This document shows, piece after piece, positions 2,488-6,891 of a stretch of 35,981 nt of DNA; positions within the stretch are counted from its first letter, which is position 1; each line of letters begins with the position of its first letter. Made by a program: the position numbers and the translations under genes. The notes beneath the pieces are model-generated. The model was not told the DNA's origin, did not search any database, and saw only the letters and a list, made by a program, of their open reading frames with translations. Location of the stretch: positions 1-35,981 of the forward strand of contig JAGGYF010000038.1 in the NCBI GenBank assembly GCA_021162685.1. The letters run 5' to 3'. The DNA is from Candidatus Iainarchaeum sp. GTDB taxonomy: Archaea; B1Sed10-29; WALL01.

Positions 2488-3111
2488 CTAAATTTTTGAG
2501 TACACAATACTCATAGCTTCTCTGAGGATATCCTCTGATTTATTTTCCCATTCTTCTATTTTAGATAATGCACTGTTGTTAAATTCCTCATCTTTTATCC
2601 CAGAGAGATTTATTTTGACATTAAGTATTGCTCCCCTCAATCCAGTGTGAGCGCACAGTGCTGCAACGCCAACATCTGTTATTGAATTTGGGTTTCCTAC
2701 CTCTGCAATCCTCTTTGTAAGTTTCAGCACATTATAGCAGGTATCTGCAGTTTTTAGAGGCACGCTGGCAGCCCCTTTGTATGCTTGTTGTATAGCTGCT
2801 CTCCTCTCCTGCTTCTGTTCTTCTGTTTCTTTTGGCATCTTAAATGCCTCCATGACCCCATTGAATGCTTTGGTGTCCTCATCAATTAGTTTCAATAATG
2901 CTGTTTTCAATGCTTCAGCATCCTTCCTTATTGCTACCATCTCCTCTTCCACTGCTGCATATTTTTCCTTTCCTATAGTCAGGTTACAGACCATGCATTC
3001 AAGAGAAGCAGCCAATGCACCACATAACGCAGATACGCTTCCTCCTCCTGGCGCTGGAGAGTTGGATGAAAGTTCATCCATAAATTCTGTTATCTTTTTC
3101 TCAACAAGCAT
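2488..3111 (-). CDS. Formimidoyltetrahydrofolate cyclodeaminase family protein
   Basis: Cyclodeaminases of this family (FTCD C-terminal domain, FchA) convert 5-formimino-tetrahydrofolate to 5,10-methenyl-tetrahydrofolate with release of ammonia. The 207-residue protein opens with the family signature SNSPAPGGGSVSALCGALAAS at about residues 16-36 and continues as the expected helical bundle (KEKYAAVEEEM, DEDTKAFNGVMEAF, ADTCYNVLKL). The ATG follows the stop codon of the upstream formimidoyltransferase gene directly, with no base between, so the two are one transcription unit and very probably consecutive enzymes. They are fused in animals and separate here. A bound folate could be tetrahydrofolate or an archaeal pterin; the sequence does not decide. 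Confidence 0.9.
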   Translation of the reverse strand: MLVEKKITEFMDELSSNSPAPGGGSVSALCGALAASLECMVCNLTIGKEKYAAVEEEMVAIRKDAEALKTALLKLIDEDTKAFNGVMEAFKMPKETEEQKQERRAAIQQAYKGAASVPLKTADTCYNVLKLTKRIAEVGNPNSITDVGVAALCAHTGLRGAILNVKINLSGIKDEEFNNSALSKIEEWENKSEDILREAMSIVYSKI

Positions 3112-4008
3112 CTAGTCACCCCATATTCTATTCTCAAGCACCTGTTTTTTATCAAAATTTTCAAGCTTCAGATAGTAATCAGCGCAATCAATTAATGCAT
3201 CCATTGGGACCAAACCTATAATCTCACTTCCTATTACTTTAACGCCGTACCTGTTTGCCTCTCTTTCTATCATATCAAATACTCTATATATCGGACTTTT
3301 CTTATAATTCACAAGATTCATAGAGACCTGGGTAATCCCTCTATCCTTTAGCTCAAATCCCAATGCCTTGACATATCTCAATCCACCGGAGATATGCCTG
3401 ACCGCTTTTGCTATCTTCTTTGCAATCTCAACATTGGGTGTATCTAGATTAACATTAAATGCTATTAAAAATTCTCTTGCACCAACTGCTGTTGCACCTG
3501 CTTTACCCATCTTACTAGGACCAAAGTCGGGCTTTCTGTCCGGATTTGTTTCTATCTCCTTCTTCAATCCTTCATATTCTCCTTTTCTAACATCAGCCAA
3601 GTTTTTTCTATCTGGCCGCGTTGCAGCATATTCATAAAGATAAACAGGTATGCCCAACTCTTCGCCAATCCTTTTTCCCAGGCTTCTTGCAAGCTCAACA
3701 CATTCATCCATAGTCATATTCTTTATCGGTACAAATGGGATAACGTCTGTTGCACCCATTCGCTTATGCTCTCCTTTATGTTTATCCATATCTATAAGCT
3801 CTGCTGCCTTCCTACATGCTCTAAATGCCGCTTCTTTGGCAGGTTCTGGCTCTCCTATGAATGTAACAACTGCTCTGTTATGGTCTGGGTCCATACTATA
3901 ATCCAATAATTTCACTCCCTCAACACTTCTGATCTCATCAACAATTGCTTCAACAACTTCTTTCCTCCTTCCCTCACTGAAGTTAGGTACACATTCAACA
4001 AGTTTCAT
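3112..4008 (-). CDS. ftcD: Glutamate formimidoyltransferase
   Basis: Transfers the formimino group from N-formimino-L-glutamate to a folate carrier. The N-terminus (KLVECVPNFSEGRR) and the region KGEHKRMGATDVIPFVPI match the formiminotransferase N-terminal subdomain. The His in GEHKRMGA corresponds to the catalytic His of the animal enzyme (usually HPRMGA; the Pro is Lys here). The second subdomain contains FLIAFNVNLDTPN, typical of the family. I chose the ATG at 4008, preceded by GAGGTG with 5 bases of spacing; an open frame extends 12 codons further upstream but has no such site. At about 298 residues it is full length for the stand-alone transferase. It directly precedes the cyclodeaminase gene. 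No histidine-degradation gene (hutH, hutU, hutI) is in the window. Confidence 0.93.
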   Translation of the reverse strand: MKLVECVPNFSEGRRKEVVEAIVDEIRSVEGVKLLDYSMDPDHNRAVVTFIGEPEPAKEAAFRACRKAAELIDMDKHKGEHKRMGATDVIPFVPIKNMTMDECVELARSLGKRIGEELGIPVYLYEYAATRPDRKNLADVRKGEYEGLKKEIETNPDRKPDFGPSKMGKAGATAVGAREFLIAFNVNLDTPNVEIAKKIAKAVRHISGGLRYVKALGFELKDRGITQVSMNLVNYKKSPIYRVFDMIEREANRYGVKVIGSEIIGLVPMDALIDCADYYLKLENFDKKQVLENRIWGD

Positions 4009-4085
4009 GAGAACACCTCGCAGTGAAAAATAAACATTCAACATTTTTAATTTTTCCTGTAAAATTGCTCAAAAAACAGAAAAGC

Positions 4086-4092
4086 TTATAAA
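4086..4092 (+). promoter_or_regulatory. TATA-like box upstream of the basic-protein genes
   Basis: TTATAAA lies about 45 bases before the TTG start of the first basic-protein gene. Transcription would start near 4114 and leave a leader of about 20 bases holding the GGGGGTG ribosome site. Inferred by sequence only. Confidence 0.5.
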
Positions 4093-4135
4093 TGAAAACA
4101 CTTTAATTGCAATTGTAACAATGGGGGTGTTCATT

Positions 4136-4270
4136 TTGGCAACAAGGAGAAGAACAACAAAAAAGAAAACAACAAGGAAGAAAAAAACAACGAAGAGGAA
4201 GACAACAAGAAAGAAGAAAACAACTAAGAAGAGGACAACAACAAGGAAGCGTAGAACACGAAGAAGATGA
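4136..4270 (+). CDS. Very small Lys/Arg/Thr-rich basic protein
   Basis: A 44-residue protein made almost only of Lys, Arg and Thr, in an irregular TT-K/R-K-K rhythm (for example RRRTTKKKTTRKKKTTKRK) and ending in TRRR. I place the start at a TTG 6 bases after GGGGGTG, because the next gene has the same arrangement (GGAGGTG, 5 bases, TTG-GCA). An in-frame ATG at 4121 lies upstream of the ribosome site. Such composition is typical of tails that neutralise DNA or RNA, as in histone H1 tails or chlamydial Hc proteins, but no folded domain is present and no homologue is recognised. A nucleoid or ribosome-associated role is inference from charge only. The + strand frame is favoured because the opposite frame gives an implausible Val/Phe/Leu repeat. 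Confidence 0.65.
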   Translation: MATRRRTTKKKTTRKKKTTKRKTTRKKKTTKKRTTTRKRRTRRR

Positions 4271-4303
4271 ATATTAAATAAAAAAACATATGGAGGTGTG
4301 TGT

Positions 4304-4522
4304 TTGGCATCTAAGGTTACACTGTCTTTGACAACAAAGGAGGCTACAACGCTCAAGCGCATCATAAAGAAGATTAAGACAAAGAAGAAGGCAAGGAAGA
4401 GAGCAACAAAGAAGAGAAAGGCAAAGAAGAAGGCAAAGAGAAAGGTTAAGAGGAAAGCGAGGAGAAAGAAAACAAAGAAGAAAAAGGCAAAGAAGAAGAA
4501 AAGAAGAACAAGGAGAAGATAA
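4304..4522 (+). CDS. Small Lys/Arg-rich basic protein, tandem partner of the preceding gene
   Basis: A 72-residue protein with a short less-charged N-terminus (ASKVTLSLTTKEATTLKRI) that could form a helix, followed by about 50 residues of nearly pure Lys, Arg and Ala. The Ala-Lys pattern (KAKKKAKRKVKRKARRK) recalls the C-terminal tails of linker histone H1 and bacterial H1-like proteins. The start is a TTG placed 5 bases after a perfect GGAGGTG (4292-4298); a GTG at 4298 is in frame but overlaps that site. It lies 33 bases after the first basic gene, so the two are probably co-transcribed. A chromatin or RNA-compaction role is suggested by composition, not shown. Confidence 0.7.
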   Translation: MASKVTLSLTTKEATTLKRIIKKIKTKKKARKRATKKRKAKKKAKRKVKRKARRKKTKKKKAKKKKRRTRRR

Positions 4523-4566
4523 GCCTCCCTCCTTCTTATTTTATTTTCGTTCCCCGCTCAGTAATG

Positions 4567-4605: not shown

Positions 4606-6891
4606 ATGAAACGAATTATCGCATTAATCTTGCTATTATCTCTCTCATTAGCAGTTGCCCCAACCGTTCAAAACATTACGCTCTCAGATGATCCAGATAC
4701 ATTAAATGATGAAATCTTCGCAACATACTACTTCAACGATACAGACAACAACAAAGAAAACGGAACAACGTTCCAATGGTACAAAAACGGAGCAGCAATC
4801 TCAGGAGCAAGTGGCCATGTGTTCTGGGGAGATAATTTTGATAATGACACCACAGGAAATGCGCCTGCGAACTGGAGCACATATCAGGCACAAACTGGAA
4901 ATATAAAGGTTAATGATACTATATATTATGGTTCAACTGGGAAAAGCACGAGGGTTTCTGCTCATGAAGATGGGCTGCAACAAAAAAATGATGTCGCGAT
5001 ATATAAATCATTACCAACAATAGCAGCTGGTTATCTTGAAGTGTATATACGTATGCCTGACACAACAACAAACAAATATTTCATGATAGAGGAAGGAGGA
5101 CTTGCCACAGCGCAGAATATCGTTATACATTTCTCAGATTCGGGGTATATTCTCTATTATGATGATTCCGGAAACCCTCAGGTTATTACATCATATCAGG
5201 CGAACCAATGGTACCACATAAAGATAAAATGGGATAACTCAACAAACTTGGAGAGCATCTGGATAGATAATCAGCTCTTGGCAGAAAACGTGACCCAATG
5301 TGCTGCATTCACAAATGGCCCTGATACAATCAGTTTTTGGGCAATGCGGGACCCCAGCGACGCCGAATTTTTTATTGACAATGTCAGGGTTTACAATGGT
5401 TCGTTATCATTACAAAAACCAGCATTTGTGAAAAATGACCAAATAGTACTTGAAGTAACACCAAAGGATGATGCAGGCGAAACAGGAACAGCCACAAACT
5501 CATCAGCGTTCACGGCTCTGAACAGCCCACCACAGATAACTACAGCACAGAATTTCACAGCCAATCAAACAACACTAACATGGGACCATTCAGAGAGAGA
5601 TTTAGATAGCGACAGCATATCAAATGTAACTGTGACATTTTTAACATCAACAAAGCAGCAGGTTACACTCCTGGACGATCATGCAAACAGCGACTATTTT
5701 ACTCCTAATGATTATGCCTCCTACAATTATTATTCGTACTCATGTTATCCAAGGACGTGTTATGCCTATGTGATTTACACTCATAACAACCTCTACATAT
5801 CAGGAAGCCCATGTGATTCCGCAACTTCTTGGGCACAGTCTTTTGATTTTGGCCTTCAGACAAGAGCATGTATTGCCATAGGACCTGATTACACACAGCG
5901 CTGGGACCTTACAGACATACGGAAGAGTACATCTAACATCAAATACTACCGCAAATTTTCCTCATCTTCAACATCCTCTACATCTTACAGTGGCGTCCCC
6001 AACACAATTGACATCTCCTCCCTCACAGCAGGGGCAAATTTCATGAATATAACAGTATCAGACGGCATCAACTCAAAAATGTACCCATACATCTTCTTCA
6101 AACCACTATATGCAGACTACACAGGTCTAAATACATCCCTTTCAACAAATGTAACATCTTACACAGCAGACTATCAGCTTGAAAACATCAACTTAGTCTT
6201 AGATGACGGTGTAGAAGGAAACATCTCATGGAGTTCAGTAAACCTTACCAATTATTCATCTGTGCCATTTGGTTCTGCAGTAACCATCCAAAACAGAAGC
6301 ATCTCTGTTGACACCTCTACAATTCCTGAGCTGAACACATCAGCAACAATAACATTCAAAGACACAGCGCTAACAAACCTAAGCAAAGTTGTGATATGGA
6401 AACGCTCTGGAACAACAAACACAACATGTTATTACAACGGAGCAATAGTTTCAGGCAACCCATGTGGCATAGGAACTCCAACGTTCTCAGACGGAGTAGA
6501 TGACATCCAATTCACAGTACCTGGATTCTCATCCTGGAACGTTGGCCCTGACAGCGACTCAGATGGCTATTCAGATGATGCAGAGAACTCATGGGGAACA
6601 GACCCAAATGATCCAAATGACCCTGGACCATACTCTTCAGATGCTGATAATGACCTCCTAACAAACGAACAGGAAGCAAACATCGGTACAAATCCAAATG
6701 ACGCAGACACAGATGATGATGGATTTGTAGATGGAGAAGAAGTAAATATATACAACACAGACCCTACAGATTCATCTGACTATCCTGCGATCCAATCCAG
6801 CCCAATACAAGTAGCACCGGCATTTGATATACTGGGAGTAGCAGTATTAGTTTTAGGAGGCATAGCAATCTTCTTTATGGTGCAGAGATAG
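4606..6891 (+). CDS. Secreted, membrane-anchored surface protein with LamG-like domain and acidic calcium-type repeats
   Basis: A 761-residue exported protein. The N-terminus is a signal peptide (MKRIIALILLLSLSLAVAP). Residues of roughly 65-230 look like a concanavalin A/LamG-type jelly roll (WGDNFDNDTTG, WYHIKIKWDNS, EFFIDNVRVYNGS). The middle holds beta-sandwich-like stretches with many Asn-X-Ser/Thr glycosylation sites and a Tyr/Cys-rich patch near 5715-5800. The C-terminal 100 residues carry acidic repeats of the thrombospondin type-3 or dockerin kind (DSDSDGYSD, DADNDLLTNEQE, DTDDDGFVDGEE), which usually bind calcium. A final hydrophobic helix (ILGVAVLVLGGIAIFF) ends in QR. I chose the ATG at 4606 because an ATG at 4564 falls inside the TATA-like stretch TTTATATA. 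Probable cell-surface or adhesion role. Confidence 0.85.
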   Translation: MKRIIALILLLSLSLAVAPTVQNITLSDDPDTLNDEIFATYYFNDTDNNKENGTTFQWYKNGAAISGASGHVFWGDNFDNDTTGNAPANWSTYQAQTGNIKVNDTIYYGSTGKSTRVSAHEDGLQQKNDVAIYKSLPTIAAGYLEVYIRMPDTTTNKYFMIEEGGLATAQNIVIHFSDSGYILYYDDSGNPQVITSYQANQWYHIKIKWDNSTNLESIWIDNQLLAENVTQCAAFTNGPDTISFWAMRDPSDAEFFIDNVRVYNGSLSLQKPAFVKNDQIVLEVTPKDDAGETGTATNSSAFTALNSPPQITTAQNFTANQTTLTWDHSERDLDSDSISNVTVTFLTSTKQQVTLLDDHANSDYFTPNDYASYNYYSYSCYPRTCYAYVIYTHNNLYISGSPCDSATSWAQSFDFGLQTRACIAIGPDYTQRWDLTDIRKSTSNIKYYRKFSSSSTSSTSYSGVPNTIDISSLTAGANFMNITVSDGINSKMYPYIFFKPLYADYTGLNTSLSTNVTSYTADYQLENINLVLDDGVEGNISWSSVNLTNYSSVPFGSAVTIQNRSISVDTSTIPELNTSATITFKDTALTNLSKVVIWKRSGTTNTTCYYNGAIVSGNPCGIGTPTFSDGVDDIQFTVPGFSSWNVGPDSDSDGYSDDAENSWGTDPNDPNDPGPYSSDADNDLLTNEQEANIGTNPNDADTDDDGFVDGEEVNIYNTDPTDSSDYPAIQSSPIQVAPAFDILGVAVLVLGGIAIFFMVQR

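Follow-up and report, generated by a model that had tools for sequence, protein, structure and literature searches.

Two adjacent genes, ORF1 and ORF2, in a 35,981-nucleotide stretch of DNA (the window, contig 33 of a DPANN archaeon genome of 1.11 Mb that is 98% complete) appear to be genuine and to encode small polycations, probably disordered, of a kind met repeatedly in their class. It is reasonably probable that these proteins bind and condense nucleic acid, supplementing the histones of the cell. This reading draws on the two ORFs and their ribosome sites, on the recurrence of such genes among the genomes of the class, on the way in which the repeats of the relatives are maintained and on the fusion of the same module to DNA-binding proteins.

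Sequence Features of the Two Genes

Both ORFs are located on the plus strand, flanked on one side by a formiminotransferase gene that runs divergently on the minus strand (3112-4044; FTCD_N E 9e-78) and on the other by the gene of a TSP3-repeat surface protein (4606-6891). ORF1 (4136-4270) encodes a 44 aa Thr/Lys/Arg protein (MATRRRTTKKKTTRKKK...) and is preceded by a Shine-Dalgarno-like GGGGGTG (4123-4129), which ends 6 nt before the TTG start. ORF2 (4304-4522) follows a Shine-Dalgarno GGAGGTG (4292-4298), with GGAGG ending 7 nt before the TTG, and its 72 aa product comprises a less charged head of 25 residues (MASKVTLSLTTKEATTLKRIIKKIK) followed by a Lys/Arg/Ala tail. The start context TTGGCA is common to both. 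The compositions are K14 R13 T15 for ORF1 (net charge +27; K+R 61%) and K30 R13 T9 A8 for ORF2 (net charge +42; K+R 60%). By comparison, in 150 order-1 Markov windows that preserve the dinucleotide transition frequencies, K+R peaked at 31% among ORFs of 40 aa or more. The preliminary description of tandem genes for tiny basic proteins, each with a ribosome site and a TTG start, is thus borne out.

A TATA-like box (TTATAAAT, 4086-4093, plus strand), identified by its match to the consensus, lies about 45 nt upstream of the ORF1 TTG and would place the transcription start near an in-frame ATG at 4121, an alternative start that would give a 49 aa product. The TTG is preferred, if not with certainty, because it has the ribosome site and because the resulting MATRRRTTKKK matches relatives that begin with MATKK, MAVKK and MPAKK. 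On the 3' side of ORF2, a pyrimidine-rich tract (4523-4550, plus strand) may serve as an archaeal terminator.

No Pfam match was found in either ORF, and there was no PDB match. A fold is unlikely for ORF1, since it is about 60% Lys+Arg and has no hydrophobic core. Single-sequence AlphaFold2 modeling of ORF2 yields one helix (residues 11-71, pTM 0.54), a result not to be trusted for such a composition; a ribbon-helix-helix fold was considered for the ORF2 head and set aside, having no Pfam support. The head has no relative among the genomes compared, which include no other genome of the genus. As a conjecture, its 25 residues, some of them hydrophobic, may mediate self-association in the manner of the Hc1 N-terminus (PMC2848022).

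With regard to the flanking genes, formiminotransferase and cyclodeaminase are encoded by two separate adjoining genes (2488-4044) in this DPANN genome, and their relatives are scattered across bacteria and archaea, a distribution which suggests gene transfer. The top named match of the formiminotransferase is Candidatus Diapherotrites archaeon AUK230 (71%), followed by Candidatus Fermentimicrarchaeum (69%).

Related Genes in the Class

Of 19 genomes sampled from the class, 10 contain short genes of the (TTKKK)n type, most of which have a ribosome site and start with ATG: the window's own genome (G000) and G002, G004, G006, G008, G009, G010, G012, G013, and G014. The nine absences are soft, as the genomes are drafts. 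The search used DNA patterns of Lys/Arg/Thr codon runs, which favor AAR/AGR/ACR codons and may miss others, and many acidic (Glu-rich) false matches were excluded by reading the ORFs. Protein-level homology searches hardly detect sequences of this type, because composition correction removes them.

The window's own genome holds a third gene (L207, 9106-9222) with a GTG start and the ribosome site GGGAGGTGA, which begins about 100 nt downstream of tRNA-Phe and encodes a 38 aa protein (MPARKKKKTTKKKKATKKK...). The relatives range from 38 to 103 aa, apart from the 162 aa protein of G002, whose repeat leads into a weak helix-hairpin-helix match (E 8e-4, below the cut-off). Agreement is seen at several N-termini, which read MPARKKKKTT in G000, MPAKKKKTT in G004, MATKKTT in G009 and MAVKKTT in G012 and G013. 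Clear ribosome sites of the GGAGG/GAGGTG type precede the gene in six of the nine relatives; the sites are weak in G012 and G014, and none is present in G002, whose gene is possibly leaderless. An ORF of like kind with 50 codons, containing Pro, Ala and Thr, occurs in G011 and was left out of the count, and outside the class one similar ORF of 30 codons was found, in G194. When the group of TTKKK mini-proteins is taken as short ORFs with very high K+R, a ribosome site and no other domain, the window genes belong to it: ORF1 and the third gene are good examples, while ORF2 fits by charge, yet is Ala-rich with a distinct head. Such compositions converge easily, which limits the value of composition alone as a sign that the genes of the ten genomes share an ancestor.

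The preliminary interpretation is supported in part: basic genes recur in the class, but neither the exact locus nor the TTG start is conserved. TTG starts are peculiar to the window genome, and since most relatives begin with ATG, gene callers would not necessarily miss such genes, contrary to what had been supposed. In G004, G005, and G008, the formiminotransferase gene is present without ORF1 and ORF2 beside it. The placement before a surface protein, to which the preliminary description had drawn attention, therefore looks incidental, and a link to that protein was rejected given that the neighborhood is not conserved and that ORF1 has a TATA-like element of its own. The stand-alone gene adjoins pmbA in G012, G013, and G014, which belong to three families. 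A tldD-pmbA link was rejected as a rule: it holds in these three genomes, but the G000 pair is located on another contig without such a gene alongside. In G006 and G010 the neighbor is a gene which, by its look, we take to encode a PHP-domain nuclease, Pfam having named none at the threshold used.

Each gene was also compared with itself shifted by 15 nt and the identity scored by codon position. In the relatives, the values were 0.68-0.96 at position 1, 0.56-0.82 at position 2 and 0.40-0.49 at position 3; the units agree at the first two positions but not at the third, so that the protein appears to be what is kept, a pattern expected of an old, selected amino-acid repeat and not of a young DNA repeat. 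The corresponding values for ORF1 (0.87, 0.51, and 0.59) do not separate protein from DNA constraint, and it is the relatives that carry the argument for the window genes.

The Same Module as a Tail on Other Proteins

Lys/Thr/Ala stretches of the same kind occur as tails on larger proteins of the class. In the window's genome, the transcription factor TFE (L207:6264-6872; TFIIE_alpha E 2e-18) carries one at the C-terminus. N-terminal tails are present on TBP in G002 and G004 (E 6e-22 and 3e-26; L303:1125-1592 and L305:1176-1847) and on TFB in G006 and G009 (L274:1447-2937 and L275:1315-2862), and a C-terminal one on MC1 in G012 and G013. All five MC1 proteins found in the class (L311-L315) have basic C-terminal tails of about 25-50 residues, those of the three outside G012 and G013 being basic as well and Arg/Ala-rich in two. 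In G015 the module is further borne by a Toprim protein of DnaG look, which, like the proteins named so far, belongs to those that handle DNA. It is also present on an eL33-like protein (G000, L301) and on an eS19-like protein (G015), and in G001 and G003 a short Lys/Thr-rich cytosolic N-terminus is found on membrane-anchored proteins that resemble DsbA (L308:475-1473 and L309:1348-2334); the eL33-like, eS19-like and DsbA-like names are our own, assigned from sequence appearance and not from Pfam. A coiled-coil protein of the window genome (476 aa, L302:558-1988) ends in the Lys-rich tail KKKTTKKGKKSTKKKGRKRR. As the modules are also found on ribosomal-type and membrane proteins, they are not DNA-specific. 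Taken by these fusions, the Lys/Thr/Ala stretch would be a general polycation module, for which DNA is the best-supported main partner.

Proposed Function

Once expressed, the ORF1 and ORF2 proteins would bind DNA, and probably RNA as well, irrespective of sequence; by neutralizing phosphate charge, they would condense or bridge the nucleoid alongside the two archaeal histones of the genome, with a functional likeness to the histone H1 tail or to bacterial Hc2/BpH1. Both histones are canonical and encoded outside the window, and MC1 was not found in this genome. Such peptides are expected to neutralize and bridge nucleic acid. This behavior has been reported for Hc1/Hc2 (PMC2848022), and KPAA peptides have been found to bind DNA (PMC9239181). 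Replacement of histones was rejected as a rule, as G000 and G012 have strong histones, with none in G013 and a weak match only in G014. The weak histone-fold matches seen in several genomes of the class correspond to a distinct protein of 120-150 aa (...KEVKIAMNRFLGDIVREVSEKMNEYPYAMIDYRMFEEAIRPYK...; L172:1369-1812 and L173:1402-1809), perhaps a histone variant extended by one more helix at the C-terminus.

The suggestion of nucleic-acid binding like that of an H1 tail gains from the stand-alone genes and from the modules fused to TFE, TBP, TFB, and MC1; the binding may serve to compact DNA or may be to RNA. The proteins might instead be RNA- or ribosome-associated polycations, resembling eL41 or ribosomal tails, that stabilize rRNA or act in translation and not in chromatin. 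The Lys/Thr tails on the eL33-like and eS19-like proteins are consistent with such a role, as is the finding that RNA is also a ligand of chlamydial Hc2, which represses translation (PMC2848022); yet the Pfam-confirmed fusions are mostly to DNA-binding transcription or chromatin proteins and none of the stand-alone genes examined adjoins recognizable ribosomal genes, and we regard this role as unlikely, if worth keeping in view. Less probable still is a generic charge ballast, in which the polycations would serve any polyanion (polyphosphate, membranes, RNA or DNA) with no dedicated chromatin role. The module does occur on widely differing proteins, membrane proteins included, and the H1-like AlgP organizes polyphosphate granules (PMC9239181), but recurrence on TBP, TFB, TFE, and MC1 seems to exceed what a random draw would give.

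That the ORFs are untranslated purine-rich repeat DNA is very improbable. Tandem Repeats Finder does report imperfect arrays over both, with periods of 15, 18, and 33 over ORF1 and of 12, 24, and 30 over ORF2; against this stand the ribosome sites, the placement of starts and stops, the lack of chance matches in randomized windows, the third-position divergence in the relatives and the occurrence of the same module inside TFE of the window genome. Beyond the preferred reading of nucleic-acid-condensing polycations, it may be speculated, with some doubt, that the class has evolved an H1-like chromatin layer of its own, consisting of the stand-alone polycations and the same modules on TBP, TFB, TFE, and MC1, in which the shared tail chemistry would tether the basal transcription machinery to condensed DNA or exclude it from it.

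Henneman 2018 (PMC6136690) reports that archaea have yielded no linker histone of the H1 type, which fits the earlier view that such proteins had not been described for this lineage, and neither "linker histone" nor "H1-like" occurs as a term in a 2024 review of archaeal chromatin (PMC11894787). If the reading is true, a recurrent H1-tail-like set, whose module is also carried by MC1 and general transcription factors, would constitute a component of DPANN chromatin that is invisible to domain-based surveys, as no profile detects such proteins.

Comparison with Known Systems

Histone H1 has a long Lys/Ala-rich stretch that is likely disordered, as in the ORF1/ORF2 type. The archaeal mini-proteins differ from it in having no globular winged-helix domain next to the basic tail (no Pfam match in ORF1 or ORF2) and, in most, Thr in place of Pro/Ala. 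The ribosomal protein eL41 is likewise tiny and K/R-rich, but shorter and not a Thr/Lys repeat. Neither a histone fold nor an MC1 domain was matched by Pfam in ORF1 or ORF2. The characterized archaeal nucleoid-associated proteins (NAPs: histone, Alba, MC1, Cren7, Sul7) and the candidate NAPs of Hocher 2022 (PMC7613761), among them a 74 aa lysine-rich protein from Methanomassiliicoccus, are also small and basic; the characterized ones, however, have folded domains and a pI of about 8-10.7 (PMC7613761), whereas ORF1 and ORF2 have K+R of about 60% and no known fold. The KPAA tails of AlgP/PhaF in Pseudomonas are another DNA-binding, Lys-rich repeat module carried by larger proteins (PMC9239181), with a KPAA unit in contrast to TTKKK, and the archaeal module is also found as a stand-alone protein.

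The closest likeness in type is to Hc2 (HctB), Bordetella BpH1 and the Burkholderia H1-like proteins, which are stand-alone, low-complexity and Lys-rich, with pentamer-like units of variable number. Units of this kind are seen as TTKKK in ORF1 and its relatives and are irregular in ORF2. The archaeal unit has three charged residues in five as opposed to two in five in Hc2, and the archaeal proteins measure 38-103 aa, compared with 165-237 aa for Hc2 in C. trachomatis (PMC2848022). The host here is an archaeon and profile matches are not significant (E values about 0.5-7 overall). Against the Hc2 profile (Pfam PF07382, cut-off 40 bits), ORF1 and ORF2 gave no match and the G012 and G013 relatives 10.1 and 10.7 bits (E 0.84 and 0.55); against the Burkholderia H1-like profile (NF038053, NCBIfam cut-off 80 bits), the relatives scored 6.8-10 bits and ORF1 and ORF2 gave none. 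Since the repeats are simple, the likeness to Hc2/BpH1 and to H1 tails is most likely convergent, and what is new is a known kind of protein, Hc2/BpH1- and H1-tail-like, in another domain of life.
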